From the NCBI RefSeq assembly GCF_022842375.1, contig NZ_JALHPR010000003.1, positions 62,001 to 126,000 on the forward strand: a stretch of DNA of 64,000 bases, written 5' to 3'. The position numbers and the translations under genes were made by a program. Source of the stretch: Elioraea sp. GTDB lineage: Bacteria > Pseudomonadota > Alphaproteobacteria > Acetobacterales > Acetobacteraceae. The notes beneath the pieces are model-generated. The model was given only the letters and a program-made list of their open reading frames with translations, made no database searches and was not told where the DNA came from. Positions within the stretch are counted from its first letter, which is position 1. Every line of letters starts with the position of its first letter. Positions 18,495 to 36,365 of this stretch are shown one piece after another.

Positions 18495-19361
18495 ATGGGT
18501 TCAGGGGTTGCCGGTGATCAATCGTCGCGTGGCTTTGCGCAACGCTCCGCCCCAGGCCCAGCAACAGCCGCTGTCTGGCCCAATGCCGCTTCGATTGAGA
18601 GGGACGGGGCGGCGCTCGCAGCGAAGGCTGCCTCGCAGCTTTGGTCGGCTGAGTGCGACATCGATTGGCGTCTCGCGCCGGTGCGGCCCTGGTGGCTGCC
18701 GCGGCGCAACCACGTGATGTTGGCCAGCCAGTTCCTGCATGGCGAACGGGCGGCACGATCGGCGTGCGAGGCTCTCCTACCGCTGCTGCCGGACGGCGCG
18801 CTGCGGCTTGCCCTGGCAACCCAGATCACGGACGAGGCACGGCATTGCGAGGCCTACGAACGCTATCTCGCTCGTCTCGGCGACATCAGCCCACGCCGGA
18901 CGCTCCTGGCCGACGCGTTCAGCCGGATCGCCGACTGGAAGGGCCCAGCCGGGGGTCTGGTTCTCGCCACGCACGTGGTGCTGGAGAGCGAAGCGCTGGC
19001 AATCCAGCAGGACCTCGTGCGCGACTTTCCCTGCCCGATCCTCCAGCGCATCTGCCAGCTCGCCGGGCGTGACGAAAGTCGGCATCTCGCCCTGGGCCGC
19101 ATTCTGCTGAAGGCAGCTGACCTGGCCGCCCGTCCGATCGATGAACGGCTGGCGCTGCATCATGCGTTGCATCGCTTGTGGCAGGACTGCGCACAGGCCG
19201 TCGTCGAGGACCACGGCGTGATCCTGTGGCGTGCTGTCCCACGCTCGCGGCTGGACGCCGGCTGGCGCCGCCTGCAGGTGACGTTCCGGCGGGTGGGGCT
19301 CATCGGCCACGGCGAGGCGCGGGCCTTCGGTGCCGCCGAGGCCGCGGTCCCTGCCGGATGA
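18495..19361 (+). CDS. Ferritin-like di-iron protein, unknown substrate
   Basis: A 288-aa soluble protein starting at ATG 18495 behind a GGGAG ribosome-binding site. A complete ferritin-superfamily carboxylate di-iron set can be read: E84 (LHGERAARS), E114 and H117 (DEARH), E164 (LESEAL), E194 and H197 (DESRH), i.e. the E, ExxH, E, ExxH pattern on four helices. Members of this superfamily oxidise amines, desaturate or deformylate substrates, or store iron. Its stop overlaps the start of the selenodomain-associated glycosyltransferase gene, so the two should act together. I do not recognise a named subfamily. Confidence 0.8.
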   Translation: MGSGVAGDQSSRGFAQRSAPGPATAAVWPNAASIERDGAALAAKAASQLWSAECDIDWRLAPVRPWWLPRRNHVMLASQFLHGERAARSACEALLPLLPDGALRLALATQITDEARHCEAYERYLARLGDISPRRTLLADAFSRIADWKGPAGGLVLATHVVLESEALAIQQDLVRDFPCPILQRICQLAGRDESRHLALGRILLKAADLAARPIDERLALHHALHRLWQDCAQAVVEDHGVILWRAVPRSRLDAGWRRLQVTFRRVGLIGHGEARAFGAAEAAVPAG

Positions 19362-20050
19362 TCTCGGTCGTCATCCCGGCATTGAACGAGGCCGCGCGGC
19401 TGCCGGGCTTGCTGGCGCAACTGCGCGCGGATGCACCGTTGCACGAAATCCTCGTCAGCGACGGCGGCAGCGTCGATGACACGGCTGCGGTCGCGGCTGC
19501 CAATGGCGCCCGTTGCATCGGTGGCACGCCCGGCCGTGGCGTGCAGCTGGCACGCGGGATTGCCGCATCGCGCGGCAGCGTCGTTCTGATGCTGCATGCC
19601 GATTCGCGCTTCCCGCATGGCGGCCTCGCCGCGATCGAGGCCGCCCTGTCGGCGCGGCCAGAGGCCCAGGGCGGCAATTTCCGCCTGCTGTTCGATGGCG
19701 ATGATCCCTTCTCTCGCTGGCTAGAGGGGTTCTATGCGCGGCTGCGGCGGCACGGCGTTTATTACGGCGACAGCGGCATCTTCATCCGTCGTTCCGCCCT
19801 CGACGCGATCGGCGGGATCAGGCCGATCGCGCTGATGGAGGATTTCGATCTTGCCCGCCGCATGGAGCGTGCCGGCCCGACCGTCACCATAGCGCAACCC
19901 GCCCTGACCACGTCGTCGCGCCGTTTCGTCGGCCGCGGGCCACGGGCGATCGTGACGGGGTGGATAAGGCTGCACCTTCTGCATGCGCTCGGCGTGTCGC
20001 CCGATCAGCTCGCCCGGATCTACGATTCCGCTCGCGAGCGGGTGCGATGA
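19358..20050 (+). CDS. GT2-like glycosyltransferase, rSAM/selenodomain-associated transferase 2 family (TIGR04283)
   Basis: A 230-aa GT-A fold enzyme without membrane segments. MISVVIPALNEAARLPGLLA, ILVSDGGSVDDTAAVA, the VLMLHADSRFP nucleotide/metal motif (DxD-like), and VYYGDSGIFIRRSALDAIGG with MEDFDLARRM are characteristic of the family first named transferase 2, rSAM/selenodomain-associated and later called arsenosugar biosynthesis glycosyltransferase. It is coupled by ATGA overlap to the ferritin-like gene upstream and the DUF3047 gene downstream. The partner family (transferase 1) is at 35643-36365 and selD at 28.7-31.0 kb, as the family name would predict. Confidence 0.85.
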   Translation: MISVVIPALNEAARLPGLLAQLRADAPLHEILVSDGGSVDDTAAVAAANGARCIGGTPGRGVQLARGIAASRGSVVLMLHADSRFPHGGLAAIEAALSARPEAQGGNFRLLFDGDDPFSRWLEGFYARLRRHGVYYGDSGIFIRRSALDAIGGIRPIALMEDFDLARRMERAGPTVTIAQPALTTSSRRFVGRGPRAIVTGWIRLHLLHALGVSPDQLARIYDSARERVR

Positions 20051-20748
20051 GCACGCCGCGGCGGAGCCTGCCGGCGATGCTCGCGGCCCTCGCGATGCCA
20101 CGTCCCGTGCACGCCGATACGACAGACCCGGCACGCGACCCCGCCGGGTGGCAGCGTCTCGACGTGCCGGGGCGCGCGCCGGTGCGGTTCTGCCTGCTGT
20201 CGGATGGGGTGGTCACGATCGACGCCGAACGCGCGGTCGGCTTCCTGCTGCGCCCGATCGCGCCGGGCGAAGTGCCGTCGCCCGGCTATCGCATGGTGTG
20301 GCGCTGGTGTGTCATGGCCACCCCGCCAGCCAGCGACGCGACGGCGATCGGCGCAGACGACCGACCGGCCAGCGTCCATCTGCTGTTCGCCGGCGCGGGA
20401 AGCGGCGGCGGGCTTGGTGCCGTGCTGCGGCGGGGCCTGAGACGCGGCCTGCTCGGCAGCGCCTTCTCCGGCCGCGCGCTGAGCTATGTGTGGGGCGGGC
20501 GGGCGCCAGCGGGAACCGTGATGCCCAACCCGCACCTCGCGCCTGACGGCATCCTCCTGGTCAGGAAGGGGCCTGACGCGCCGCTTGGCACCTGGTGTGA
20601 CGAACGGGTGGACCCAGCTTCTGACTATCGCGCGGCGTTCGGCGATGCCGCACCGCCGCCGACGCACCTCGCGCTGTCAGCCGACACCGACGATCTCGGT
20701 GGGCGCGCCGCCGTCGCACTCCTGCCACCCCGGTTCGTGGCGGGCTGA
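20047..20748 (+). CDS. DUF3047-family exported protein
   Basis: A 233-aa protein with an apparent N-terminal export signal (RRSLPAMLAALAMPRPVHA). The body matches the pattern of DUF3047: a central YRMVWRWCVM, DDRPASVHLLFAG, LSYVWGGRAPAGTVMPNPH, and a terminal DYRAAFGDAAPPPTHLALS with DTDDLGGRAAV. The family is thought to be a periplasmic beta-sandwich; no activity is known. It is the last gene of a three-gene, overlapping operon with the ferritin-like and glycosyltransferase genes. Confidence 0.8.
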   Translation: MSTPRRSLPAMLAALAMPRPVHADTTDPARDPAGWQRLDVPGRAPVRFCLLSDGVVTIDAERAVGFLLRPIAPGEVPSPGYRMVWRWCVMATPPASDATAIGADDRPASVHLLFAGAGSGGGLGAVLRRGLRRGLLGSAFSGRALSYVWGGRAPAGTVMPNPHLAPDGILLVRKGPDAPLGTWCDERVDPASDYRAAFGDAAPPPTHLALSADTDDLGGRAAVALLPPRFVAG

Positions 20749-20755
20749 TCCCGCC
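20739..20755. terminator. Weak hairpin between convergent genes
   Basis: GGCGGG, a 5-nt loop and CCCGCC form a 6-bp GC stem over the stop of the DUF3047 gene and just ahead of the convergent peroxiredoxin gene. There is no T-tract, so it would be at best a weak or bidirectional terminator. Confidence 0.25.
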
Positions 20756-20776
20756 GGGAGCCCGGGGGCGCTCGGC

Positions 20777-21298
20777 TCAGGCGAGCGTGCCGCGGATCGG
20801 GTAGTTCATCTCCTGGATGCGCTTCGCCCCACGCGCGATGCCGCCGAGGTCTGGGCGGGCGAAGGGCGCGTTGGAGATGTCGATCAGCTGCGCCTGGCCG
20901 GCGGGATTGATCAGGAACAGCCCGGGCTCGGCGAAGGGACGGTCGGTCTCCTGCGGCGAGCGCGGGTGCGAGATGTAGAGGCCCATCGCCTGCATCTGCG
21001 GCACGCTCAGCCCGTAGCCCAGCGGAAAGCGCCAGCCGAACTCGGCATGATCGGCCGCTGCCTTCTCCTCCGGATCGGCAGAGATGGCAGCGACCGCGAC
21101 GCCGGCCGCGGCAAACTCATCGAGCAGTGAGTCGAGCGTGCCGAGATAGGGCTTGCAGAGCGGGCAGTGCTTGCCGCGATAGACCACGAGCAGCCGCCAG
21201 CCCTGCATCGTGGCGGGCGCGATCTCGCCGCCGCCCAGGCGCGGCACCGCGATGGCCGGGAATGCCTCGCCCGCGGCGAGCTTCGTCGATTGGGTCAT
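20777..21298 (-). CDS. Peroxiredoxin-like protein (AhpC/TSA family)
   Basis: A 173-aa cytoplasmic thioredoxin-fold protein. The start at 21298 follows a GGGAGAGAG ribosome-binding site; the longer open frame upstream is not supported. The active-site region WRLLVVYRGKHCPLCKPYL holds CxxC rather than the single PxxxTxxC cysteine of classic AhpC, as in PrxQ/AhpC-like 2 proteins. DRPFAEPGLFLINPAGQAQL follows. Probable role: reduction of peroxides using a thiol donor. The two glutathione transferases upstream in the same direction make a thiol-stress unit likely. Confidence 0.82.
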   Translation of the reverse strand: MTQSTKLAAGEAFPAIAVPRLGGGEIAPATMQGWRLLVVYRGKHCPLCKPYLGTLDSLLDEFAAAGVAVAAISADPEEKAAADHAEFGWRFPLGYGLSVPQMQAMGLYISHPRSPQETDRPFAEPGLFLINPAGQAQLIDISNAPFARPDLGGIARGAKRIQEMNYPIRGTLA

Positions 21299-21452
21299 GG
21301 TCGGCTCTCTCCCGTTCATGGTGATGTCGCGTCCTGATCCCGCCTGACACGCCGATGGGCGGACGAGGAGCATCGCCTCGCTCGCATCGTGCACGCCGGG
21401 TCTCCGTGCGCGTCCGCCGGTGCCGCGCCGGGTGATGTGGTCGCGGGCGTGC

Positions 21453-22142
21453 TCATGCGCCGAAGCAAGGGCTGCGCCGCGCCATGCCGCCGTGCAGGTC
21501 GAGCAGGCGTTCGCGCCAGACCAGCACGACGTCGCCCTCCTCCAGCAGCGACAGCGGGCTCGTGCTGCGCGCCCACATGAAGCTGCCGAACACGATGTAG
21601 TCGGCGTAGTCGGGCGCATCGCCGCCGAGGAATGGCCCGTGGGCGAGCGCCAGGCGCAACGGCTGCAGCGTGGCGCGGAAGGCCGGCAGCTTCTGCTCGC
21701 GGTCGGCGGTGACCTGGTCGAGCGTCATGCCGAACCGCTTCTCGCGGCTTGCCACGAAATAGCTCCGCTCCGCCTCGCGCAGCAGGGGCGGGATGTCGGA
21801 GACGATCAGCCGCGCGATGCCGGGCTGAAGAACCGCATCGTTCCACGCCGCGACGAAGCGATAGGGCTCTGGCCGCCCATGCAGCAGGCTCGGCCGGTCG
21901 GGATAGGCCTCGTCGAGGTAGCGCGCGATGGTCCAGGAATCGGCCACCGTCCGGTCGCCGTCCACCAGCACGGGCACCTTGGCATGCTGCGCGAAGGCGA
22001 GGCGGTCCGTCTCGGTGAAGCGCCAGGGGATGCTCTCGAAGTCGAGGCCCTTGTGCGCCAGTGCCATGCGGCTGCGCCAGCAGAACGGGCTGAACACGCG
22101 GTCCGGGTCGGCACCGCAGAGTTCGTAGAGGTGACGTGCCAC
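21453..22142 (-). CDS. Glutathione S-transferase family protein
   Basis: A 229-aa cytoplasmic protein starting at GTG 22142 with AGGGGC upstream. The N-terminal thioredoxin-like domain carries FSPFCWRSRMALAHKGLDFE (Ser/Cys at the active position), KVPVLVDGDRTVADSWTIARYLDE (cis-Pro and the glutathione gamma-Glu site), and an all-helical C-terminal domain from about residue 90. FSPFCWRSRMAL resembles the beta-etherase-like (LigE/LigF) subgroup; substrate is unknown. It lies 5 bp after the second GST gene, forming a TetR-GST-GST unit. Confidence 0.85.
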   Translation of the reverse strand: MARHLYELCGADPDRVFSPFCWRSRMALAHKGLDFESIPWRFTETDRLAFAQHAKVPVLVDGDRTVADSWTIARYLDEAYPDRPSLLHGRPEPYRFVAAWNDAVLQPGIARLIVSDIPPLLREAERSYFVASREKRFGMTLDQVTADREQKLPAFRATLQPLRLALAHGPFLGGDAPDYADYIVFGSFMWARSTSPLSLLEEGDVVLVWRERLLDLHGGMARRSPCFGA

Positions 22143-22146
22143 GGTA

Positions 22147-22857
22147 TCAGCGCCCCTTCACTGTCGTTGCGGTCTGGCCGAACAGCAGCGCTGCCGAGGC
22201 GGCGGTCACGGTCGGTTCCGTATTGACCTCGGTGGCGCGCGCATAGGCACGCGCCGTCGCTGGCCGCGCCGCGATGGCTGCGAACCACCGCGCGATGTGC
22301 GGGAAGTCGGCGAGGTCCTGGCCCTGGCGTGCGTGCGGCACGACCCATGGGTAGCAGGCCATGTCGGCGATCGAGTAGTCGGGGCCGGCGATGAACGCAC
22401 GGTCGGACAGGCGCTTGTCGAGCACGCCGTACAGGCGCCCTGTTTCGTTCACGTACCGATTGATCGCGTAAGCGATCGGCTCGGGCGCGTAGTGCGCGAA
22501 ATGGTGGTTCTGCCCGGCCATCGGGCCAAGCCCGCCCATCTGCCAGAACAGCCATTGCAGCACCTCCGCCTGCCCGCGGATGTCGGTAGGATGCGGCATG
22601 AAGCGGCCGGTCTTCGCCGCGAGGTAGAGCAGGATGGCGCCGCTCTCGAACAGCGGCACGGGCGCGCCGCCATCGGCCGGGGCATGATCGACGATGGCAG
22701 GGATCCGGTTGTTCGGCGCGATGGCGAGGAACTCGGGCTTGAACTGGTCGCCCCGCGAGATGTTCACCGGGATGATGCGGTAGGCGAGCTCCGCCTCCTC
22801 GAGGAACATCGTGACCTTGTGGCCATTGGGCGTGGTCCAGTAGTGCAGGTCGATCAT
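22147..22857 (-). CDS. Glutathione S-transferase, YfcG/Ure2p-like
   Basis: A 236-aa protein starting at ATG 22857. MIDLHYWTTPNGHKVTMFLE, the VNISRGDQFKPEFLAIAPNN segment and NRIPAIVDHAP correspond to the N-terminal domain of YfcG/YghU-type transferases, in which TxPNxxK replaces the catalytic cysteine or tyrosine; these enzymes often show disulfide-bond reductase activity. The helical domain contains FIAGPDYSIADMACYPWV. The start overlaps the TetR stop by 4 bp, so the regulator and both transferases are one operon. Confidence 0.88.
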   Translation of the reverse strand: MIDLHYWTTPNGHKVTMFLEEAELAYRIIPVNISRGDQFKPEFLAIAPNNRIPAIVDHAPADGGAPVPLFESGAILLYLAAKTGRFMPHPTDIRGQAEVLQWLFWQMGGLGPMAGQNHHFAHYAPEPIAYAINRYVNETGRLYGVLDKRLSDRAFIAGPDYSIADMACYPWVVPHARQGQDLADFPHIARWFAAIAARPATARAYARATEVNTEPTVTAASAALLFGQTATTVKGR

Positions 22858-23453
22858 GCGCGGTGCTCCGGGGCGGGGGGATCGAGGAGGGCAAGGGCCT
22901 GGCGCGCGGCACCGCGCAGCAGCGCGGCATCGGCCCTGGCGCGGGACAGCACGCGCAGGCCCATCACCGTGCACAGCAGAAGCCGCGAGAGGTCGTGCGC
23001 CGATGGCTGCGGCGCGATCGTGCCGTCGCGCTGGCCGGCCAGCACGCAGCGGCGGAAGAAGCCCTCCAGCTCGGCCAGCCGGGCCGCCACGACGGCGCCG
23101 ATCGCCTGATCGTGCGGGCCGACTTCCAGCGCGGAATTGACCAGCAGGCACCCGCGCGGATCAGCCAGCGATCGCGTGACGATCTCGTTCAGGAAACAGG
23201 TGATCGCCGCGTGCGGTGGGCGTTCTCGCTCCAGCCGCGCGATCCTCTCCCGCATGTTCCGATCGAGGTAGCGATCGAGGCAGCGGGTGAACAGCGCATG
23301 CTTGTCGCCGAACGCGTTGTAGAGGCTCGCCGGCACCAACCCCATCGACCGGCCGAGGTCGCGCACCGACGTTCCGGCATAGCCATGCTGCCAGAACTGA
23401 TCGGTGGCGGCGTCAAGCACCGCGATCTCGTCGAACGCACGCGGGCGCGCCAT
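22854..23453 (-). CDS. TetR/AcrR-family transcriptional regulator
   Basis: A 199-aa repressor-type protein. The N-terminal helix-turn-helix reads ATDQFWQHGYAGTSVRDLGR and SMGLVPASLYNAFGDKHALF (about residues 15-54), which is the AcuR/YxaF style of TetR head. The C-terminal ligand domain contains RGCLLVNSALEVGPHD. It heads the GST-GST operon and probably represses it until an electrophile binds. The approximately 200 bp upstream hold no gene and are AT-richer (TTTTAGAGCGACTGTTATAG near 23488-23507), a likely location for its promoter/operator. Confidence 0.9.
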   Translation of the reverse strand: MARPRAFDEIAVLDAATDQFWQHGYAGTSVRDLGRSMGLVPASLYNAFGDKHALFTRCLDRYLDRNMRERIARLERERPPHAAITCFLNEIVTRSLADPRGCLLVNSALEVGPHDQAIGAVVAARLAELEGFFRRCVLAGQRDGTIAPQPSAHDLSRLLLCTVMGLRVLSRARADAALLRGAARQALALLDPPAPEHRA

Positions 23454-23661
23454 GCGGCCGCATCCCCTCGGCTGGAGGCATCACTTGTTTTAGAGCGACT
23501 GTTATAGAACATCCACAAGGCGTGGCAAGAGGCCGATCTCCTCATGTCAGGCGCGGGTTGCCTTCGCTATTGCAACGGCTGCGGCGCGCCACCCACCGCC
23601 CGTGATCGGCGGAGCGGATCGCAGCGTTCCGGAAACGGCGCGATGATGGAGATCGACGCCC
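23454..23661. promoter_or_regulatory. Probable promoter region of the TetR-GST operon
   Basis: The 208 bases between the regulator and the convergent end of the radical SAM gene have no credible ORF. Around 23484-23520 the sequence is AT-rich, and the inverted-repeat-like TAGAGCGACTGTTATAG (near 23491) lies some 40 bp before the TetR start, where TetR-type operators normally sit. No direct evidence of binding. Confidence 0.3.
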
Positions 23662-24696
23662 TCAGCGCCGCGCCGTCACGATGGTCGTGCAGGCGCTCTC
23701 GAGCTTCGGCAGGTCACGCTGCGGCGCCATGCGGATCCGCAGCCGCCGGTCATCGCCGCGCACCACCGGGCAATAGGGGTCCGGCTCGTCCAGCGCCTCC
23801 ATCAGCCGCCGGCGCCCCGCGCAGCCGCCGCCGCAGGTGGCGCGGTGCGCGCAGGGCTCGCAGGCAGGCGGCACCGATCGCGCGGCGACGAAGGGCGCGC
23901 TCTCCACGATCGCCTCTCCGGCACCGAGCAGCAAATCGAGCGGCGCGCCGCCGCCCGGCCAGTAGACGCAAGGCTGCACCGTGGCGCGCGGCGTCACCCG
24001 CACCGTCGCCACGCCGCAGCCGCCCTGGCGCGGCGGCAGCCCCGCCATGGCGCGCACCAGCGGCTCTCCCACGGCGATTGCGTCGGTCTCGGCGAACAGC
24101 CTGGCGAAGCCGTCCCAGTATTCGTCATAGGTGAGCGCGTAGCTGTCGCTGCGCACCGACTGGTACACGTTGAGGCGCAGCGGCGCGTCGAATGCGGCAG
24201 CGACCTCGGCGATCTCGGCGAGGCGCAGGTGGTTGCTGCGCATCATGACCGCGATGATCGTGACGCCAACGCCCATTTCCCGGCAGCGGCGCGCCTGGCG
24301 CTGGATCAGGTCCCAATTGCCGTCCCCGCGCTGGGCGTCCTGCTCCTCGCGTGTCGGGTAGTCGAGCGAGAATTCCACGTCGGCGAAGCTGCGCAGCTCG
24401 GCATCATCCAGCACCTCGATCGAATGGCCGTTGGAGGTGATGGTGAGCTTGACCGGCTGGCTGCGGAAATAGCCGAGCATGTCCCGGAACTCCGGGTGCA
24501 TGCCGTTCTCGCCGGTGCCGAGGTTGACCGAGCGCACCGGCAGCCGGTCAAGCACCGACCGCACCTGGTCGAGGCCCAGGCGATCGGTCCGCGTCGGGTC
24601 GCGGTAGCAGAAGGCGCAGGCGAGGTTGCACTCGTTGGTCAGCCCGAGCCCGAGGGCGAAGCGCCGCTCCGTGGCGACCTGTCCCTCAACGGTCAT
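23662..24696 (-). CDS. Radical SAM protein with SPASM-like C-terminus
   Basis: A 344-aa iron-sulfur protein. The CxxxCxxC cluster motif is C23, C27, C30 in CNLACAFCYRDP. SAM-binding features are VNLGTGENGMHPEF and KLTITSNGHS. A second cysteine-rich region near the C-terminus, QGGCGVATVRVTPRATVQPC, then CEPCAHRATCGGGCAGRR and YCPV, can ligate one or two auxiliary clusters as in SPASM enzymes. Such proteins modify peptides, sugars or nucleosides by 5'-deoxyadenosyl radical chemistry. It is divergent from the methyltransferase/selenate-transport/selD run with only 34 bp between, so shared regulation is likely. Substrate unknown; no RiPP precursor seen next to it. Confidence 0.88.
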   Translation of the reverse strand: MTVEGQVATERRFALGLGLTNECNLACAFCYRDPTRTDRLGLDQVRSVLDRLPVRSVNLGTGENGMHPEFRDMLGYFRSQPVKLTITSNGHSIEVLDDAELRSFADVEFSLDYPTREEQDAQRGDGNWDLIQRQARRCREMGVGVTIIAVMMRSNHLRLAEIAEVAAAFDAPLRLNVYQSVRSDSYALTYDEYWDGFARLFAETDAIAVGEPLVRAMAGLPPRQGGCGVATVRVTPRATVQPCVYWPGGGAPLDLLLGAGEAIVESAPFVAARSVPPACEPCAHRATCGGGCAGRRRLMEALDEPDPYCPVVRGDDRRLRIRMAPQRDLPKLESACTTIVTARR

Positions 24697-24730
24697 GGTG
24701 TGCGCTCCCCGCCACGGCTACGCTTCGACG

Positions 24731-25612
24731 ATGCATCCAACGTCCCCCTCCGCTCTGCCCACGCCGAGCTCCCCCGATCCTCGCATGCCCGAGGCCGTGC
24801 CGGCGACCCTCCAGCCCGACCAGGACGCCGCCCGCTGGGACCGGCATGCCGAAGCCTACGAAGCCGTGTTCGAAGGCCTCACCGATGCCTTCGCAACCGC
24901 AGCGCTCGATCTGCTCGAACCGCTCCGCGACGCGCGCCTGCTCGACCTCGCCGCCGGTGCGGGCGGCGCGGCCTTGCAGGCGGCCGCGCGCGGCGCCCAC
25001 GTCACTGCATTCGATGCATCGGCCGCCATGGTTACACGCATCCGGCACCGTGGTGCCGGGGCTGCGATCCTGGCCGAGCAGGTTGATGCCCGGCTGCCCC
25101 TGCCGCGGCCGGATGGCGCCTTCGACCTGGCGCTGTCGTGCTTCGGCGTCGTGCTCCTGCCAGACCCCGTCCCGGCCTTGCGGGAGCTGCATCGGGTGCT
25201 GCGGCCCGGTGGGGTTCTGGCCGTGGTGACCTGGACCGAGCCTGGCCGCTACGAGCTCGCCGCGAGGCTCCGGTCAGCGGTCGAACGGGTCAGCGGGGCC
25301 CCGCCGCCGGCAGGGCCGATCCCAGCGCAACTCCGCTACACCGAGCCGGCGGCGCTGGTGGCGCTGCTCGACGCAGGCGGGTTCGGCGCCGCCAGGGTCA
25401 TGCGGGTGGAGGCGACGCTGCACGCCGCCTCGGCCCGCGCGCTCGCCGCCGCGCTCGACTTCGCGCCGGGAATGGCAGCGCTGCTCGATGGCCTCGGACC
25501 CGACCGCACGGCGGTGGAAGCGGCCTTCGCCGAGGCGCTCGAGGCCGACCAGGGCGTCGGGCCGGTCGCGCTTGGCGCGGTCGCGCAGATCGGCGTCGCG
25601 ATGCGGACGTAA
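24731..25612 (+). CDS. Class I SAM-dependent methyltransferase
   Basis: About 293 aa from ATG 24731 (an internal ATG at 24785 is an alternative; neither has a strong ribosome-binding site). Motif I is LLDLAAGAGGAALQAAARGA, followed by VTAFDASAAMV (acidic ribose-binding Asp), the FDLALSCFGVVLLPDP motif, and LRELHRVLRPGGVLAVVTWT, all typical UbiE/COQ5-like methyltransferases. It lacks the conserved thiols of ArsM arsenite methyltransferases. The next genes are the selenate-type transporter and selD, so a selenium- or arsenic-containing acceptor is possible but purely contextual. Confidence 0.85.
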   Translation: MHPTSPSALPTPSSPDPRMPEAVPATLQPDQDAARWDRHAEAYEAVFEGLTDAFATAALDLLEPLRDARLLDLAAGAGGAALQAAARGAHVTAFDASAAMVTRIRHRGAGAAILAEQVDARLPLPRPDGAFDLALSCFGVVLLPDPVPALRELHRVLRPGGVLAVVTWTEPGRYELAARLRSAVERVSGAPPPAGPIPAQLRYTEPAALVALLDAGGFGAARVMRVEATLHAASARALAAALDFAPGMAALLDGLGPDRTAVEAAFAEALEADQGVGPVALGAVAQIGVAMRT

Positions 25613-28746: not shown

Positions 28747-31043
28747 ATGCTGGCCCGGTGGTGAAGGACGTGGTGCTGGTCGGCGCCGGCCATGCGCATG
28801 TCGCGGTGTTGCGGAACTTCGGCATGACGCCGCTGCCCGGCGTGCGCCTCACCCTGATCACGCGCGAGGTCGACACGCCCTATTCCGGCATGCTGCCCGG
28901 CCACATCGCCGGCCACTACGCCGCGGACGAGATCCATATCGACACCGGCCCGCTGGCGCGCTTCGCCGGCGCGCGGCTCTACCAGGACGAGGTGGTCGGC
29001 CTCGATGTCGCGGGCCGTCGCGTGATCTGCCGTGACCGGCCGCCCGTGCCCTACGATATCGTCTCGCTCGACATCGGCTCGCGCCCCAACACCGCCGACA
29101 TTCCCGGCGCGGCCGAGCATGCACTGCCGGTCAAGCCGATCGATGGCTTCCTGCCGCGCTTCGCTGCGCTGCGCGCGCGCGTGCTGGCGGGAACCTCACG
29201 CCATGTGCTGCTTGTCGGCGCCGGTGCGGGCGGGGTGGAACTGCTGCTCGCCACCGAGCACCGGCTGCGGCGCGAGGTGGCAGACCCGGCCGCGCTCCGC
29301 TTCACGCTCGTCGCCGGCAGCGGTGGCGTTCTGCCAGGCTTCCCGGCAGCCTTGCGCGCCCGGTTCCGCGCCGTGCTCGCCGCGCGCGGCATCGCGGTGG
29401 AGGCGGGAGCGCGCGTTGCTGCGGTGGAGGCTGGCGCGATCACCCTGTCCGACGGCCGCCGGATCGCGGCAGACGAGATCCTGTGGACGACGCAGGCGGC
29501 ACCCGCGGCCTGGCTTGCCGAGACAGGGCTCGCCCTCGACGAACGTGGCTTCCTCCGCGTCGATGCGATGCTGCGCGCGACAGGGCGGGAGGATGTATTC
29601 GCCGCCGGCGACACCATCGCCTTCGATCCCGCGCCGATCCCGCGCTCCGGCGTCTATGCGGTGCGTGCCGGCCCTGTTCTCGCCGACAACATCCGCGCCA
29701 CGCTGACCGGCGGGGCACTCCGCCCCTACAGGCCGCAGCGCGACGCGCTCTACCTCATCTCGACCGGTGACCCGCACGCGGTCGGCACCCGCAACGGCCT
29801 CGTCCTCGGCGGCAGGTGGGTCTGGCGGTGGAAGGACTGGATCGATCGCCGCTTCATGCGTCGCTTCCGCGACCTTCCGGCGATGCCGGGGGCTGCTTCC
29901 GGGCCCGCCGCCGGGCCTGCCTCGCCGCTCGCCGACAAGGCAGCACTGCGTGACATCTCGGCGATCGCGATGCGCTGCGGCGGCTGCGGCGCCAAGGTGG
30001 GCGCGACCGTGCTGTCGCGTGCGCTGGGCGCCATCGCGCCCTTCCCGCGCCCGGAGGTGCTGGTCGGCCTCGCCGCGCCGGACGATGCGGCGGTGGTCGA
30101 TACCGGCGGGCCGCGGCTGTCGGTGCAGACGGTCGACTACTTCCGCGCCATCGTCGACGACCCGTGGCGCTTCGGCATGATCGCGGCGAACCACGCGCTT
30201 GGCGACATCTACGCCATGGGCGGCGAGCCGCAGACAGCGCTCGCAATCGCCACCGTTCCCTATGGGCTGGAAGCCAAGGTCGAGGCCGATCTGTCGGCCA
30301 TGATGGACGGCGCCAACGCGGTGCTGCGCGAGGCCGGCTGCGCGCTGGTCGGCGGCCATACCAGCGAGGGCGCTGAACTCTCGCTTGGCTTCGCCGTCAA
30401 CGGGCTGGTCGCGCGCGACGCCTTCCTGCGCAAGGGCGGGCTCAGGCCCGGCGATGCGCTGGTGCTGACCAAGCCGATCGGTACCGGAACGTTGCTTGCC
30501 GCCGACATGCGCGGACTGGCGCGCGCCCGCTGGGTGCAGGCGGCGATCAGGCACATGTGCGTCTCGAACCGCCGCGCCGCCGAGGTGCTCGCACACCACG
30601 ACGTCAGTGCCGCGACCGACGTGACCGGCTTCGGCCTGCTCGGCCATCTCGTCGAGATGACGCGCGCGAGCGAGGTGGATGCGCGCCTCATCCTCGACCG
30701 CATCCCAGTGCTGGACGGCGCGCGGGAAAGCGTCGGGCGCGGGGTGTTCTCCTCGTTGCAGCCGCAGAACGTACGGCTGCGCCGCGCCGTGCGCGACCTC
30801 GACCGCGCGCAGGCGCTCTCCGACTACCCGCTGCTGTTCGACCCGCAGACCGCCGGCGGGCTGCTCGCGAGCGTGCCCGCCGCGCGCGCCGAGGCCTGCA
30901 TCGCCGCACTGCACGAAGCGGGATACGCGGCCGCTTCGGTGATCGGCCATGTGCTGGCGCGCTCCGACGCGCTGGAGCCGATCGTGCTGGTGCCGAGCGA
31001 GCCCGCTGCCAGGCCGGCCGCGCGCGAGGCCGTGCCCGCATGA
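28737..31043 (+). CDS. selD: Fused FAD-dependent pyridine nucleotide oxidoreductase / selenide, water dikinase
   Basis: A 768-aa bifunctional protein. The start at 28737 lies 7 nt after AAAGGAG; ATG 28743 is an alternative. Residues 1-390 are an NDH-2-like flavoprotein: FAD site LVGAGHAHVAVLRNFG, NAD site LLVGAGAGGVELLLATEHRL and C-terminal FAD block DVFAAGDTIAF. Residues about 400-760 are selenophosphate synthase: AMRCGGCGAKVG with catalytic C417 and K420 (a cysteine, not a selenocysteine, codon), DDAAVVD, NHALGDIYAMGGEP, GGHTSEGAELSLG and DVTGFGLLGHL. SelD makes selenophosphate from selenide and ATP. The flavin domain may supply reducing power to make selenide, which is inference. No selA, selB or selU adjoins it. 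Confidence 0.95.
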   Translation: MRMNAGPVVKDVVLVGAGHAHVAVLRNFGMTPLPGVRLTLITREVDTPYSGMLPGHIAGHYAADEIHIDTGPLARFAGARLYQDEVVGLDVAGRRVICRDRPPVPYDIVSLDIGSRPNTADIPGAAEHALPVKPIDGFLPRFAALRARVLAGTSRHVLLVGAGAGGVELLLATEHRLRREVADPAALRFTLVAGSGGVLPGFPAALRARFRAVLAARGIAVEAGARVAAVEAGAITLSDGRRIAADEILWTTQAAPAAWLAETGLALDERGFLRVDAMLRATGREDVFAAGDTIAFDPAPIPRSGVYAVRAGPVLADNIRATLTGGALRPYRPQRDALYLISTGDPHAVGTRNGLVLGGRWVWRWKDWIDRRFMRRFRDLPAMPGAASGPAAGPASPLADKAALRDISAIAMRCGGCGAKVGATVLSRALGAIAPFPRPEVLVGLAAPDDAAVVDTGGPRLSVQTVDYFRAIVDDPWRFGMIAANHALGDIYAMGGEPQTALAIATVPYGLEAKVEADLSAMMDGANAVLREAGCALVGGHTSEGAELSLGFAVNGLVARDAFLRKGGLRPGDALVLTKPIGTGTLLAADMRGLARARWVQAAIRHMCVSNRRAAEVLAHHDVSAATDVTGFGLLGHLVEMTRASEVDARLILDRIPVLDGARESVGRGVFSSLQPQNVRLRRAVRDLDRAQALSDYPLLFDPQTAGGLLASVPAARAEACIAALHEAGYAAASVIGHVLARSDALEPIVLVPSEPAARPAAREAVPA

Positions 31044-31876
31044 CCTCACCGCTGCTCGACGCGAAGGATTTCGGCGCACCATCCGTATTCCAGCCGGCGG
31101 CGCTGCTGCGCGAGGCACGGCGGCAGAAGACCCTGCCCGAGATTGCCGTGCCGCCCGCCTGCCTGCTCGACCCGGACGGCGACATCGTAGCGCACCTGCT
31201 ACGCACGGGGCGGGCGCGGCCGCATCCGGGCTGGGCCTGCTACCATACCGACCTGTTCACCTTCGATCTCCCCGGCGTCGCGCACCCGGTCGGCGTGATC
31301 GGGCGCGCGGTCGGCGCTCCCTTCGCGGTGCTGCTGGCCGAGCAGCTCTTTGCCAGCGGCTGCGCCACGCTGCTCAGCATCACGTCGTCAGGCCGTATCG
31401 CCAAGGATCTGCCCGCCGCACCGCATTTCCTGCTGATCGATCGTGCGCTGCGCGACGAGGGCACCAGCCACCACTACCTGCCGCCCAGCGCCTTCGCCGC
31501 CATGCCGGAACCCGCGCTGATCGAGGCGGCCGCCGTGCGCTTGGCCGCAGAGGCGCCGGGGATCACCGTGCTCCGCGGCGCGACATGGACGACCGACGCG
31601 CCGTTCCGCGAGACGGCAGCGGCGATCGCCACCGCGCGCGCCGCAGGCTGCCTAGCGGTCGAGATGGAAGCCGCTGCCCTCTACGCGTTCGCCACCGCCA
31701 CGCGCCGCCGTGTCCTGTGCGTCGCTCACGTAACGAATGCCATGGGTCAGGACGAAGGAGATTTCGAGAAGGGCGAGGCGGACGGTGCGGCCGATGCGCT
31801 GCAATTGTTGTCGGTGTTGATCCGCACGGTCTTGCCATTGGCTGAGAACGGTACCTTGCCTGCCAACAGGGAGTGA
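31040..31876 (+). CDS. Nucleoside phosphorylase-family protein
   Basis: A 278-aa cytoplasmic protein of the PNP/UDP phosphorylase fold, coupled to selD by a 4-bp overlap. FTFDLPGVAHPVGVIGRAVG, LLSITSSGRIAKDL, LIDRALRDEGTSHHYLPP and the ribose/base site CLAVEMEAAALYAFA are present. Such enzymes cleave nucleosides (or MTA and 5'-deoxyadenosine analogues) with phosphate. In arsenosugar synthesis an adenine-releasing enzyme follows radical SAM chemistry, so a similar step on a 5'-modified adenosine is conceivable here; this is inference from neighbourhood alone. Confidence 0.86.
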   Translation: MTSPLLDAKDFGAPSVFQPAALLREARRQKTLPEIAVPPACLLDPDGDIVAHLLRTGRARPHPGWACYHTDLFTFDLPGVAHPVGVIGRAVGAPFAVLLAEQLFASGCATLLSITSSGRIAKDLPAAPHFLLIDRALRDEGTSHHYLPPSAFAAMPEPALIEAAAVRLAAEAPGITVLRGATWTTDAPFRETAAAIATARAAGCLAVEMEAAALYAFATATRRRVLCVAHVTNAMGQDEGDFEKGEADGAADALQLLSVLIRTVLPLAENGTLPANRE

Positions 31877-31882
31877 CTTCCG

Positions 31883-32527
31883 ATGCGGACCAACCCCTTC
31901 ACCGACACGTTCCAGTTCCTGATCGGCCAACAGCCCGACCAGCTGACCCTCGGCCTCTTCGGCTGGGTCTTCCTCGCGCTGTTCTGGGCTCTGCTGATCG
32001 GCAGCGTCGTGATCGCCGTGCGCAACTGGCAGGCCGATCCGGCGCAGCGCAGCGCGGCGCATCTCTGGACCTGGGTGGCGCGCACCATGATGGGAGCGAT
32101 GTGGTTCCAGGGCGCGCTGTGGAAGCTGCCCTTTCCGCAATCGCCCGGCTTCTTCCACTGGACCAGTCAGATCGCCGAGCACGCAGCCTTCGGCTGGCAC
32201 CGCGCTCTGGCAAGCGAGGTGATGCTGCCGCTGCTGCCGCTGTTCCAGGCGGTCGCTTTCTTCGGCGAGATGTTCTTCGCGATCAGCCTGATGCTCGGCC
32301 TCGCCGTCCGGCTGTCGAGCCTGCTGGCGATCGGCTTCGTGGTGCAACTCTGGCTCGGCCTCTACCGCGTCAGTTTCGAGTGGCCGTGGCTGTTCTGGTT
32401 CATGATCTTCACGCTCGGCTGGTTCATCGTGCACCGGGCGGGGCGCAGCCTTGGGCTCGATGCAGTGCTGCTGCGCGAGCGGCGCCTCTCGCCGCCGCTC
32501 GCACGCTGGCACGCGCTGGTCTCGTAG
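31883..32527 (+). CDS. DoxX-like integral membrane protein
   Basis: A 214-aa membrane protein with about five hydrophobic helices, starting behind GGGAG. The pattern WVFLALFWALLIGSVVIAV, VARTMMGAMWFQGALWKLP, QAVAFFGEMFFAISLMLGLA, and LFWFMIFTLGWFIVHRAG matches the DoxX/DoxD group, several of which are thiosulfate:quinone oxidoreductase subunits or thiol-linked membrane proteins. It lies 6 bp after the phosphorylase gene and is the last rightward gene of the run. Role in quinone-linked selenium or sulfur redox is possible, unproven. Confidence 0.72.
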   Translation: MRTNPFTDTFQFLIGQQPDQLTLGLFGWVFLALFWALLIGSVVIAVRNWQADPAQRSAAHLWTWVARTMMGAMWFQGALWKLPFPQSPGFFHWTSQIAEHAAFGWHRALASEVMLPLLPLFQAVAFFGEMFFAISLMLGLAVRLSSLLAIGFVVQLWLGLYRVSFEWPWLFWFMIFTLGWFIVHRAGRSLGLDAVLLRERRLSPPLARWHALVS

Positions 32528-32534
32528 GGCCCGG

Positions 32535-33233
32535 TCAGCCGCGCCGCAGCGCGGCGGCCAGGCGCAGGAAGGTGGTGGCGATGCTCCAGCTCGCCGCCGC
32601 CACCGCGCGCGGATTGCCCGACACCTTCGAGACGCCACCGAACCGCCGCCGCTGCCCCACCGCGACCTCCTCGGAAGCAATGCCCGCCGCGGCGACGCGC
32701 ATCAGCATCTCGAGGTTCCAGCCATAGGTCTCCTCGCGCATGCCGAGGCGCGCGAGCGCGTCACGGCGGATCGCGCGGAAGGGCGACATATCGGAGAAGC
32801 GCGCGCCATAGAACAGCCTCAGCAGCACCTGCGCGATGCGCCCGGCGGCCACCTGCTGGGGGGAGAGCGCGCCCGGTTCGCGTTCGCCCTTCACACGCGT
32901 GCCGTGCACGAAGTCGGCGCGGCCGGCCAGGATCGGCGTCAGCACATCGGGGATGCGTTCCGGCGGGTCACTGCCATCGCCATCGAGGAACAGCACGATC
33001 GCGGCATCCGGCGGCAGCGCGGCGATCCCCGATTGCACCGCGCGGCCGTAGCCGCGCCGCGTCTCCTCCACCACGGTCGCACCCGCCATGCGCGCCCGCG
33101 CCACGGTGGCATCGCGCGACCCGCCGTCCACCACGATCACGGTCGCGACCCCTTGCGCGCGCACCCCTGCCACCACCTGCCCGATCGCCGCTTCCTCATC
33201 CAGGCAGGGGATGATCGCGGCGACCGCGCCCAT
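32535..33233 (-). CDS. GT2-family glycosyltransferase (polyprenyl-phosphate type)
   Basis: A 232-aa GT-A enzyme. MGAVAAIIPCLDEEAAIGQV, VIVVDGGSRDATV, RRGYGRAVQSGIA, the LFLDGDGSDPPE DxD motif and DMSPFRAIRRDALARLGM place it near dolichyl/undecaprenyl-phosphate glycosyltransferases and UDP-glucose transferases. No membrane helices of its own. It follows the second radical SAM gene by 11 bp in the leftward operon with the GT87-like mannosyltransferase. A polyprenyl-phosphate sugar donor made here could be used by the GT87-like enzyme upstream. Confidence 0.85.
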   Translation of the reverse strand: MGAVAAIIPCLDEEAAIGQVVAGVRAQGVATVIVVDGGSRDATVARARMAGATVVEETRRGYGRAVQSGIAALPPDAAIVLFLDGDGSDPPERIPDVLTPILAGRADFVHGTRVKGEREPGALSPQQVAAGRIAQVLLRLFYGARFSDMSPFRAIRRDALARLGMREETYGWNLEMLMRVAAAGIASEEVAVGQRRRFGGVSKVSGNPRAVAAASWSIATTFLRLAAALRRG

Positions 33234-33244
33234 TTCAGGGCCCG

Positions 33245-34327
33245 TCAGAGGCTCCACCGCATCCCGCATCCCGCGCAGCTGCCGGGTGGTGTGTCGGAGA
33301 GGAGTGCGGTGCGGAAATCCTGGTAGGCCGCGCCGTTCCAGATCTCGCTGAGCGTCTGCTGCGTGGCGTCGCCCAGCGTGTAGTTCTCGTAGCCGCGCTG
33401 CGAGAACGGCGCGATGCAGCAGGGCAGCGCGCGGCCATTGGCGGTGAAGTACATCACCGACCACGGGCGCCGGCACAGCGACCATGGATTGGCGTCGGCC
33501 TCGCGCTTCAGGCTCATGCCCGGCTCGCTCGCGGCACCGGAGGCGCTGAAGTGCATGCCGAGCGCGGCCGCGACGTGAGCGGCCTCGTCGAGATGCACCG
33601 CCTCCTCGCGCGACATGCGCTCGAACAACGCCTGGTCGGGGCGGGCATGGCCGATCGCGTCGTCCTCGAAGAACACCAGCCGCTGCAGGTAGACCTCCTT
33701 CACCCCGGCCTCGTGCGCGACACGCACGAAGGCGGGCAGCTGCTCGATCGTCTCGCGCAGGCCCGTCAGCCACATCGAGACGCGCGGCTTCTCCAGCCCC
33801 TCGCGCGCCTGCATCTCGGTGAAGGCGCGCACGTTGCGCAGGATGCGCGCGAAGAAATCCTTGCCGCGGACCTCCCGGTACGTCGCGGCGTCGGCGGCAT
33901 CGAGCGAGACACGAAGCTCGTCGAGCCCGGCCTCGGCGAGGTCGCGGCCCTTGCGCGGGGTCAGCAGCGTTCCGTTGGTGTTGAACAGCACATAGGCGCC
34001 GCGGTCCTTCAGGTAGCGCACCTGGCGCGGCAGGTCCTTCACCAGCATCGGCTCGCCGACGCCGTGCAGCACCACGCGGGCGATGTTCGGCACCTGGTCG
34101 ACGATGCCGGTGAACATCTCCCAGCTCATGTCCGCCGGCGGCTCGAGCTCCTCATAGGTGCGCGGGCAGGTGGTGCAGAGGAGGTTGCAGCGGTTCGTCG
34201 TCTCGAGGTAGAGGCAGACGGGCGGGGCCTTTGCGACCGGCCCGTCGGGGCTGACCGCCTCGTGGTAGCGGCGCGGGTCGATGCGTGGCGGTTCGGCCAC
34301 GGACGTGTTCGTCTGACCGGTGCTCAT
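33245..34327 (-). CDS. Radical SAM protein with auxiliary-cluster C-terminus
   Basis: A 360-aa protein. The start at 34327 overlaps the upstream gene by 4 bp; the longer frame is antisense extension into neighbours. The CxxxCxxC motif is C47, C51, C54 in NRCNLLCTTCPRTYEE. SAM-fold elements VVLHGVGEPMLVKDLP and YVLFNTNGTLLTP follow. C-terminal cysteines, SLCRRPWSVMYFTANGRALP with CCIAPF, and GSCAGCGMRW at the end, form a twitch/SPASM-like auxiliary site. It sits between two glycosyltransferases, so the likely substrate is a sugar, lipid-sugar or nucleotide-sugar, by context only. Confidence 0.88.
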   Translation of the reverse strand: MSTGQTNTSVAEPPRIDPRRYHEAVSPDGPVAKAPPVCLYLETTNRCNLLCTTCPRTYEELEPPADMSWEMFTGIVDQVPNIARVVLHGVGEPMLVKDLPRQVRYLKDRGAYVLFNTNGTLLTPRKGRDLAEAGLDELRVSLDAADAATYREVRGKDFFARILRNVRAFTEMQAREGLEKPRVSMWLTGLRETIEQLPAFVRVAHEAGVKEVYLQRLVFFEDDAIGHARPDQALFERMSREEAVHLDEAAHVAAALGMHFSASGAASEPGMSLKREADANPWSLCRRPWSVMYFTANGRALPCCIAPFSQRGYENYTLGDATQQTLSEIWNGAAYQDFRTALLSDTPPGSCAGCGMRWSL

Positions 34328-35646
34328 GGCGTGGCTCCTGAGGTGGCAAGCGTGTGGGCCGCACGGCGCCGGCGCAGCGCGAGCGGTAGTGTCGCAAGGA
34401 TGGCGAGGTGCAGCGCCGTGTCGCGCAGCATGAAGTCCACCTCGAAGCCCTCGTCGATCACGTCGTAGAGCACGAAGGCACCGATCGTCGCCGCCCAGCC
34501 GGGAGCGAAGCCGGTCAGCGCCACGAAGGGCAGCAGGATCAACCAGTACCAGGGATAGTCCGGCGAGAGCAGGAAGACGAAGGCGAAGACCGCCCAGCAG
34601 AGGCGCGTCAGCACGGCCTCGGGCGTGCGGTCGGTGTGCAGCGCGACACGCAGCGCCAGCGCACCGACGATGCCGACCGCGAGCGCGAGATAGATCGGCG
34701 TCGCAAGGCGCAGAGGACCGAGCTGTGCCTTCAGCAGGGAGACCATCCAGAAGCCCTCGGCGGTGGCGATGCGTTCCTCGCCCAGATATCCCGGCAGGAA
34801 ACCGAGCACGCCGGAGCCCACCGAGAGATACGGAAGGTACAGTGCCACCGCGACGGCGATGGCGAGAGCCGGCGCGCGCCAGTCCCAGGCGCGCCAGGTG
34901 ACGGCCAGCGCGATCGCCGCCGGCGGCTTGACCAGCGCCGCAACCGCCAGCACCGCCGCCGCCAGCAGCCGCCGTCCCGCGACCAGCGCGATCCAGATCC
35001 CGCTCATCATCATCGCGATCATTGCCGCATCGAGATGGCCGCTGCCGGCGATCTCCCACACCGCCAGCGGATGCCACGCATAGGCCAGCACGCGCACGGC
35101 CGGCTGCCTGATACGCCGCAGAAGATCGAACAGCACCGCGACGATCACCACCTCGCACAGCACGAAGGCAAGACGCATCGCGAGCAGCGTGTCGCTGATC
35201 CGCGCGACCAGCTGGAACAGCATCTGCGCCGCTGGCGGATAGATGGTCGGCGCATAATCGGCGCGGTTGATGTTCGGGAAGATCGCCGCGTCGCGCAGCG
35301 CCTCCAGCGCGGGGTCGGTCGGAATGTAGCGATACGGGTTGATGCCGGCCGCCTGCACGCGGCCATCCCAGACATAGCGATAGGCGTCGGTCGACAGATG
35401 CGGATCGACCGGCAGCACGACGAGCCGCAACGCCACCGCGACGACGGCGATCACCGCCAGCGCCGGCCCCGGCGGGCAGCGCAGCGCGAGGCGCAGCGCC
35501 AGCAACACCATGAGCCCCTGTGCGACCGCAAGTGCCGAGAAGGCGATGTCGCCGATGCCGAGATGCAACGATTGGCCGACCCACGTCGTCGCGACCAGGA
35601 CCAGCCCGATCGCGGCAAGCAGGGCGAGGGAGCGGGACGGCGTCAC
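34324..35646 (-). CDS. Polytopic GT87-like mannosyltransferase-family protein
   Basis: A 440-aa membrane protein with about eleven hydrophobic segments, starting at GTG 35646. Features of the GT-C/GT87 (DUF2029) class are the first-loop acidic site DAYRYVWDGRVQAAGINPYR, followed by the NRADYAPTIYPPAAQMLFQL segment, and VLAYAWHPLAVWEIAGSGHLD. Relatives transfer mannose or other sugars from polyprenyl-phosphate donors on the periplasmic face. It overlaps both neighbours by 4 bp, in order: transferase-1-family gene, this gene, radical SAM, GT2. Confidence 0.84.
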   Translation of the reverse strand: MTPSRSLALLAAIGLVLVATTWVGQSLHLGIGDIAFSALAVAQGLMVLLALRLALRCPPGPALAVIAVVAVALRLVVLPVDPHLSTDAYRYVWDGRVQAAGINPYRYIPTDPALEALRDAAIFPNINRADYAPTIYPPAAQMLFQLVARISDTLLAMRLAFVLCEVVIVAVLFDLLRRIRQPAVRVLAYAWHPLAVWEIAGSGHLDAAMIAMMMSGIWIALVAGRRLLAAAVLAVAALVKPPAAIALAVTWRAWDWRAPALAIAVAVALYLPYLSVGSGVLGFLPGYLGEERIATAEGFWMVSLLKAQLGPLRLATPIYLALAVGIVGALALRVALHTDRTPEAVLTRLCWAVFAFVFLLSPDYPWYWLILLPFVALTGFAPGWAATIGAFVLYDVIDEGFEVDFMLRDTALHLAILATLPLALRRRRAAHTLATSGATP

Positions 35647-36365
35647 GCCGCCCGGCCGCCGCTGCCGGCGGCAAGCAACGCGCGCGTGTGCCGCGGCTCC
35701 GCGCCGACGATGCCGGGCGCGGCGAAGGCAGGCTGCGTCCCGGCGAGTTCCGCTTCCAGGACGCCGAGGGTCTCGGCGTCGTCCACGTCGTACCAGGTCG
35801 GCAGCAGGACGACCGGCAGGCTGATCTCGGCCGCCCGCTCCCGGCTCTCTGCCAGAACCGTCGGCGTGCTCCAGGCGATGTCCTCGAACAGGCGGGCATG
35901 CGACCGCTTCAGCCCGATGAGGTAATAGCCGCCATCGCTCGCCGGGCCGAACACCGCACGGTCGCCCGGCGCGCGCAACGCCGCGACCGCCTGCTCGACC
36001 AGGCCGGCCGGTAGGGTCGGACTATCGGCGTTCACTACCAGGGCGCAATCATGACCCTCCGCCAGGAAGGCGGTAGTGCTTGCGTGCAGCACCTCGCCGA
36101 TCGTCGCGGCCTGCTGGAAGTGCAGGCGCCAGAGTGGCGGCAGCAGGGGCCGCAGCGCATCCTCCGACCCGGCGGGGCTGTAGATCGCGATCCGGCTGCC
36201 GCCGATCGCGGGCGCGAGTGCGTCGAGCGTGGCGGCGATGTCGCGGATGAAGCAGGCCGAGAGCGCCGCCACCCTGTCCGCGCCGAGCACAGGACGCAGG
36301 CGCGACTTCCCACCGCCGACACCCGGCGTCTTGCAGACGATCGCAACTGCTGCGCCCTTACCCAT
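35643..36365 (-). CDS. CofC-like transferase, rSAM/selenodomain-associated transferase 1 family (TIGR04282)
   Basis: A 240-aa nucleotidyl/glycosyl-transferase-like protein starting at ATG 36365 behind GAGAGGGG. VAIVCKTPGVGGGKSRLRPV is the K-TPxxG-KSRL signature of the family (DUF2064), with DCALVVNADSPTLPAGLVEQ and VFGPASDGGYYLIGLKRSHA as donor-site motifs. This family was first defined as transferase 1, rSAM/selenodomain-associated and later linked to arsenosugar biosynthesis. Its companion family is at 19358-20050, and selD is between them. It is the first gene of the leftward four-gene glycan operon. Confidence 0.87.
   Translation of the reverse strand: MGKGAAVAIVCKTPGVGGGKSRLRPVLGADRVAALSACFIRDIAATLDALAPAIGGSRIAIYSPAGSEDALRPLLPPLWRLHFQQAATIGEVLHASTTAFLAEGHDCALVVNADSPTLPAGLVEQAVAALRAPGDRAVFGPASDGGYYLIGLKRSHARLFEDIAWSTPTVLAESRERAAEISLPVVLLPTWYDVDDAETLGVLEAELAGTQPAFAAPGIVGAEPRHTRALLAAGSGGRAA

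Follow-up and report, generated by a model that had tools for sequence, protein, structure and literature searches.

What does selenophosphate synthetase (SelD) supply in a bacterium in which the usual consumers of selenophosphate are not found? Orphan SelD genes have been on record since 2008, with Methylobacterium nodulans and Brevundimonas sp. BAL3 among the published strains, and later surveys proposed that a still unrecognized selenium trait lies behind the unexplained cases. One such gene lies in a 64,000-nucleotide stretch of DNA from Elioraea sp. (contig NZ_JALHPR010000003.1, positions 62,001 to 126,000; hereafter the window), within a gene unit at 23662-36365 that also encodes a SPASM-type radical S-adenosylmethionine (SAM) protein, here called rSAM1. 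Our best reading of this unit is a SelD-dependent selenium trait that is marked by rSAM1 and is distinct from selenocysteine, selenouridine, the selenium-containing molybdenum cofactor and selenoneine. In the parts covered, Lin 2015 (PMC5322559) describes orphan SelD without known selenium traits and proposes an unknown SelD-based trait, and the 2016 ISME J survey (PMC5029168) reports orphan SelD, proposes an unknown trait and notes an ATP-binding cassette (ABC) ATPase near selD; unlike the cluster described here, the SelD genes in these parts of the two papers are given neither a radical SAM nor a glycosyltransferase partner. A search of the open-access PMC literature yielded no paper describing these genes as a set.

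An orphan SelD and its radical SAM neighbor

The SelD gene (28743-31043, plus strand; alternative ATG start at 28737) encodes a fusion of an NDH-type oxidoreductase and SelD that scores 456 bits with TIGR03169 (cut-off 310) and 311 bits with TIGR00476 (cut-off 125). It carries the active-site motif CGGCGAK, the Cys and Lys of which we take to be the SelD catalytic residues, and is thus identified as a selenophosphate synthetase by profile and motif. The window's genome is 99.3% complete. In it, SelA was not found over its cut-off (best score 51.3 bits against 267.9), MnmH/SelU and YqeC, which denotes the selenium-molybdenum cofactor trait, gave no matches, and the SenA profile gave none at E 1e-25. 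Because SelA, MnmH, YqeC and SenA were all not found, SelD is by these tests an orphan in this genome. A preliminary description of the window had listed selA, selU, tRNA-Sec, the selenoneine gene senA and ArsS as missing. These absences hold genome-wide for SelA, MnmH, SenA and ArsS (TIGR04167, not over its cut-off here or in six relatives), and no tRNA-Sec was called within the window. Its suggestion that selenophosphate feeds a small molecule is also the most likely one, given that no other tested SelD user was found and that the unit is strongly syntenic in relatives; neither half of the contrary outcome that it had named, a selenoprotein or selenouridine pathway elsewhere and a lack of conserved synteny, was encountered.

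The decisive element, not singled out in the preliminary description, is the family to which rSAM1 belongs, together with the link between that family and SelD. rSAM1 (23662-24696, minus strand) harbors a CxxxCxxC motif, seven SPASM cysteines and an extra C-terminal cysteine, Cys336, in the motif S-x-C-T-T, and it reaches no cut-off among the best 25 of the 41 NCBIfam families matched. Relatives were collected in one scan of a genome collection of 84,980 species using a four-row alignment query, a scan that depends on two exact peptide patterns and misses relatives without them. The 79 loci recovered belong, by record title, to Alphaproteobacteria (24), Acidobacteria (43) and others (12), the last comprising Methylomirabilota/NC10, Rokubacteria, Binatota, Planctomycetota and two Bacillota-labelled bins; apart from six, all 79 are from metagenome bins. 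The SPASM cysteine pattern is C-x15-C, CX2CX5CX3C and C. With five fragments left out, this pattern and the radical SAM CxxxCxxC are invariant in all 76 full-length rSAM1 rows, and Cys336, in x-C-T-T, is present in 74, the remaining two being gapped.

The rSAM1 structure model (predicted local distance difference test score 89.7) has a SPASM-type fold. Its nearest solved fold is SuiB (Z 21.7; root mean square deviation (rmsd) 3.9 over 305 residues), followed by anSMEcpe and BlsE. Hence rSAM1 is like SuiB, anSMEcpe, PqqE and BlsE in fold (Z ~18-22) and in its SPASM cysteines, but it is 14-21% identical to these enzymes and differs from them in the conserved Cys336 and in its partners, SelD and glycosyltransferases. 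In a quick tree, the alphaproteobacterial rSAM1 rows form one group. Across the rSAM1 and SelD trees, the low-confidence placements of L040, L054, L143 and L140 were left unused.

SelD scored over its cut-off in 53 of the 57 genomes searched. The 57 comprise 54 genomes with rSAM1 (the window's, and those of every one of the 24 alphaproteobacterial and 12 other loci and of 17 of the 43 Acidobacterial loci, in sum 53 of the 79), two congeners with neither gene (G001 and G002) and G019, in which SelD is present and rSAM1 was not seen, at a contig edge. SelD is present in 52 of the 54 rSAM1-bearing genomes. It was missed in G445 and G449, where the contig ends inside the transporter genes, ahead of the usual place of SelD. 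These ends may account for the misses, but this is suggestive only, as SelD can also occupy the opposite flank, which it does in L088. Two SelD lineages, one NDH-fused and one stand-alone, adjoin rSAM1 in Alphaproteobacteria. In a SelD-domain tree (seven duplicate or partial rows left out, including L195, which is rSAM1 locus L093 again), one 18-row clade takes in 16 of the 17 fusions that adjoin rSAM1. The clade's other two rows are G019 and a long branch whose genome gave no rSAM1 match, and the 17th fusion, L134, lies outside it. In Alphaproteobacteria, the selenium link is well supported.

Fusions of the same NDH-SelD family also occur at L037, L040, L043, L046, L050 and L052 with a shared gene set that resembles, by eye, a dipeptide-type ABC transporter. 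No MnmH match was obtained in the genomes of these six loci, and the group is possibly a second orphan-SelD use.

Partner genes of rSAM1 across phyla

Partner genes were counted where rSAM1 is flanked on both sides by 3 kb or more; in total there are 80 loci, the 79 and the window's, each cut at 10 kb. At the 17 alphaproteobacterial loci, including the window's, SelD, the transporter genes PhnD, PhnC and PhnE, and DoxX are found at 15 each, GT2 and a second radical SAM protein (rSAM2) at 14, GT87 and the methyltransferase at 13, TIGR04282 at 9 and the nucleoside phosphorylase at 8. The 24 Acidobacterial loci show GT2 (23), GT87 and TIGR04282 (22 each), a secreted protein of 246 amino acids (21), the methyltransferase (19) and DoxX (17), with a phosphorylase at one and rSAM2 and SelD at none. 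At the five loci of other phyla, GT87, TIGR04282 and DoxX are always present, GT2 is present at four, the secreted protein at two, the methyltransferase and rSAM2 at one each and SelD at none. When short contigs are included the counts are lower, with TIGR04282 at 11 of 25 alphaproteobacterial, 30 of 43 Acidobacterial and 6 of 12 other loci. The usual rSAM1 partners across phyla are GT2, GT87, TIGR04282 and DoxX, joined outside the minor phyla by the methyltransferase.

Acidobacterial loci are without the transporter genes but carry the secreted protein. No solved relatives of this protein were found by sequence; its predicted structure is LolA/LolB-like (best Z 11.9, rmsd 4.1 over 188 residues), a likeness that hints at lipid trafficking. 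At three Acidobacterial loci (L115, L120 and L126), a phosphorylase 41-43% identical to that of the window is followed by an efflux-like gene pair. The Methylomirabilota locus L138 has an alternative partner set, in which methyltransferase-like, TIGR04283-like (37% to the window's) and reductase-like genes precede rSAM1 (7199-10951).

SenA is over its cut-off in 13 of the 57 genomes and lies within 3 kb of rSAM1 at 4 of the 80 loci: L088, L132 and L107 (510, 485 and 485 bits; cut-off 420) and, as a fragment, L117. Though the loci are few, SenA beside rSAM1 suggests a further selenometabolite link. The selenoneine pathway (SelD, SenB, SenA) is similar in that SelD feeds a small-molecule pathway; the core of the window's cluster, in contrast, consists of radical SAM proteins and glycosyltransferases. 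The two Acidobacterial SenA-adjacent rSAM1 rows are sister to the alphaproteobacterial group in the rSAM1 tree, with modest support.

The gene unit in the window and its boundaries

Profile searches and synteny delimit the conserved unit to 23662-36365, where two operons converge and rSAM1, transcribed divergently, lies upstream of the plus-strand operon. The plus-strand operon begins with a Methyltransf_11/UbiE-like SAM-dependent methyltransferase (24785-25612), followed by a periplasmic binding protein, PhnD, of the 'putative selenate' family (25660-26544; TIGR04553 354 bits, cut-off 250), a PhnC-like ABC ATPase recognized by profile match (26547-27206) and a double PhnE-like permease (27199-28746; TIGR01097 in two stretches, 173 bits, under the cut-off of 217). 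After the NDH-SelD fusion come a PNP_UDP_1 nucleoside phosphorylase (31040-31876) and a DoxX/DoxD-like membrane protein that is under the Pfam cut-off yet conserved (31883-32527). Overlaps of 4-8 bases join PhnC to PhnE, PhnE to SelD and SelD to the phosphorylase. The minus-strand operon encodes, in order, a TIGR04282/DUF2064 protein, which is a CofC-like nucleotidyl or glycosyl transferase (35643-36365; 140.8, cut-off 134), a GT87-like membrane glycosyltransferase (34324-35646; 25.3, cut-off 25), the radical SAM/SPASM protein rSAM2 (33245-34327), for which TIGR04317 and TIGR04311 are nearest, both far under cut-off, and a GT2 glycosyltransferase of the AglJ/polyprenyl-phosphate type (32535-33269; alternative start 33233). 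TIGR04282/GT87 and GT87/rSAM2 overlap by 4 bases, and rSAM2/GT2 overlap or are separated by 11 bases, depending on the GT2 start.

The locus of Roseomonas sp. CECT 9278 (G294; L060/L061) is collinear with window positions 23657-37180 at 84-86% DNA identity, and that of G339 contains rSAM1, SelD, TIGR04282, GT87, rSAM2 and GT2. The distribution is sporadic, because the congeners G001 and G002 have neither rSAM1 nor SelD. Within the order, rSAM1 is found in 3 of 395 genomes (E 1e-20), and SelD of any kind is over its cut-off in 31 of 100 relatives. Among 72,556 plasmid records, rSAM1 had no match at E 1e-30 and the SelD fusion had matches of <60% identity only.

The preliminary description had treated 18495-36365 as one island. 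All the families it listed are present (the SelD fusion, TIGR04553, two radical SAM proteins, the methyltransferase, the phosphorylase, GT2, GT87, TIGR04282 and TIGR04283), with its ferritin-like and DoxX-like proteins under their cut-offs; the ferritin-like protein has sub-threshold matches only (AurF 18.6 bits, R2-like oxidase 20.8). The island itself, however, does not survive comparison. A separate gene set at 18495-23453 (ferritin-like protein, TIGR04283, DUF3047, peroxiredoxin, two glutathione S-transferases (GSTs) and TetR) is absent from the syntenic G294 locus, where two molybdoenzyme genes take its place. The ferritin-like, DUF3047, GST and TetR genes, like a histidine phosphatase, are each confined to one of the 80 loci, that of the window, TIGR04283 occurs at two loci including the window's, and peroxiredoxin matches at four, with 24-34% identity in the three besides the window; the histidine phosphatase is also in G294, outside the scanned locus. 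An argument from the joint presence of both rSAM/selenodomain-associated transferases is consequently not supported: both score over their cut-offs (TIGR04283 187.9 against 182), but TIGR04283 belongs to the neighboring operon, outside the conserved unit. The 'selenodomain' of the two family names presumably refers to the ArsS family TIGR04167, and NCBIfam now labels TIGR04282 and TIGR04283 arsenosugar enzymes.

The ferritin-like, TIGR04283 and DUF3047 genes (18495-20748) form one overlapping operon directly downstream of tRNA-Phe (18176-18251); conservation of the selenium unit does not extend to this operon. Just past the cluster, at 37283-37305, the 3' end of tRNA-Phe recurs as an imperfect copy with 14 exact bases, and window positions 37283-37374 match a G294 stretch at and right after the tRNA-Phe end; tRNA-targeted insertion is possible. 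A tRNA-Ala call by ARAGORN at 17016-17108, within a long coding frame and without Rfam support, is probably spurious.

Proposed function and its alternatives

From TIGR04553 and gene linkage, the PhnDCE-like transporter would import a selenium oxyanion, and the NDH-SelD fusion, by established SelD chemistry and with its active-site Cys and Lys in place, would make selenophosphate. rSAM1 may make a C-Se bond via a 5'-deoxyadenosyl radical, perhaps on a methylated selenium species provided by the methyltransferase, with Cys336 or an auxiliary cluster holding selenium or substrate. The phosphorylase, judged by its family, could strip a seleno-nucleoside of its base. Activation of the sugar, its loading onto polyprenyl phosphate and its transfer at the membrane could fall to TIGR04282, GT2 and GT87 and would give a selenosugar or selenoglycolipid in the cell envelope. 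Gene content, linkage, co-occurrence and conserved motifs are read directly from the genomes; transport and all chemistry after selenophosphate we infer. That SelD, selenium-oxyanion import and an rSAM1 consuming selenophosphate-derived selenium act jointly is probable. A selenosugar or selenoglycolipid product, as put forward in the preliminary description, is plausible from the gene families, but we consider it possible rather than probable. It is doubtful that rSAM1 draws on selenophosphate-derived selenium to form C-Se bonds and that the cluster makes an envelope selenoglycolipid across several phyla.

Several observations weigh against this proposal, beginning with the fact that it draws on genes, from which the chemistry is predicted. 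SelD is nearby at 0 of 43 Acidobacterial and 0 of 12 other non-alphaproteobacterial loci, and SelD contains an in-frame TGA in 25 of the 29 non-alphaproteobacterial genomes examined, so that selenocysteine use may explain SelD there. The presence of TIGR04282 and the phosphorylase at about half of the alphaproteobacterial loci (9 and 8 of 17), partly owing to the 10-kb locus cut, means that the sugar/phosphorylase step does not apply everywhere. Alphaproteobacterial and Acidobacterial methyltransferases form separate clusters, about 30-35% identical, and cannot be taken as equivalent; together with the single methyltransferase at the five well-flanked loci of other phyla, this implies that a methyl donor for the rSAM1 step is not general. 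If SelD served another use and rSAM1 and the glycosyltransferases made a selenium-free glycolipid, the linkage would be due to chance, as the Acidobacterial clusters without a local SelD and the many SelD genomes without rSAM1 might suggest. We regard this as improbable in view of the repeated linkage in many alphaproteobacterial lineages, the two SelD lineages involved, the mostly rSAM1-linked SelD clade and the co-occurrence of the two genes. In an Acidobacterial order, rSAM1 is in 6 and SelD in 89 of 200 genomes, with an overlap of 6/6 (Fisher p=0.007), and in the family of G451 they are in 4 and 44 of 199, with an overlap of 3/4 (p=0.035), though these tests are small, ignore kinship and draw on sets that include genomes already known as rSAM1 carriers.

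The same genes might instead act on other substrates. The arsenosugar gene set consists of ArsM, ArsS and TIGR04282/TIGR04283, and arsenite methyltransferases have conserved cysteines. The window's cluster resembles this logic by analogy, with a methyltransferase, a radical SAM protein and TIGR04282, to which it adds a nucleoside phosphorylase, while the place of the arsenic genes is taken by SelD and the putative selenate transporter. Methyltransferase and rSAM1 could thus act on arsenic, with SelD incidental, a reading favored by the NCBIfam arsenosugar names and by the G014 locus (ACR3, ArsH, rSAM1, SelD, TIGR04282), where ACR3 and ArsH, both over cut-off, adjoin rSAM1. Yet these two genes are found at 1 of 80 loci, and arsenic genes were rejected as core partners; ArsS is over its cut-off in 0 of 7 genomes, and rSAM1 is not ArsS (32.7 bits, cut-off 300), their match being confined to the first half, the radical SAM core, which also weakens the parallel for our own proposal. 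The 14 aligned alphaproteobacterial methyltransferases lack a conserved Cys column, whereas the Acidobacterial ones show two that are conserved in most rows (22 and 29 of 36), which makes arsenic possible there. Radical SAM adenosylation of arsenic in arsenosugar synthesis is described in the part covered of PMC12159101. With SelD and the 'selenate' transporter as the usual alphaproteobacterial partners, we judge arsenic unlikely as the substrate. Insertion of selenium into a molybdenum or tungsten cofactor is about equally unlikely: the families nearest rSAM2, TIGR04317 and TIGR04311, are metalloenzyme maturases, but rSAM2 scores 141 and 128 against cut-offs of 380 and 400, the constant partners are glycosyltransferases, and the window's genome has no YqeC. 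In G294, a TtrB/ArrB-like iron-sulfur protein and a PhsA/DMSO-reductase-family enzyme, all under family cut-offs, lie directly upstream of rSAM1 (L060, 10446-13695) and would fit such a role; an oxidoreductase is near rSAM1 at 2 of 80 loci, one at 24% identity, and a molybdoenzyme was rejected as core partner. Finally, rSAM1 might modify a ribosomally synthesized and post-translationally modified peptide (RiPP) with selenium. The SPASM domain and the nearest solved folds (SuiB, anSME, CteB and SkfB), which mostly act on peptides or proteins, speak for such a selenopeptide and against our main proposal. However, no open reading frame (ORF) of 20-95 amino acids within 6 kb of rSAM1 was common to four or more other loci (E 1e-4), and at looser settings the twelve most-shared small ORFs were Arg- or Ser-rich low-complexity frames. 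A conserved RiPP precursor was therefore rejected, nothing convincing having been found, and the sole candidate peptide exporter among the shared gene clusters is an efflux-like pair, assigned by eye, at four loci. We consider a selenopeptide improbable.

Selenoneine and ovoselenol are recently characterized selenometabolites according to the part covered of a 2026 review (PMC13188914). A SelD-dependent trait marked by rSAM1 would stand beside them: the cluster gives some orphan SelD genes concrete partners, and provides rSAM1 as a marker for any genome, a set of named carriers (Roseomonas sp. CECT 9278, Methylobacterium brachiatum and M. oxalidis among them) and a testable product class. If the proposal is correct, soil bacteria of several phyla use selenium in small-molecule or lipid chemistry, and some carriers, including the window's genome, do so with no other selenium pathway among those tested. 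Should the product be a selenoglycolipid, it would add another dedicated role for selenium in biology and be a first selenolipid.

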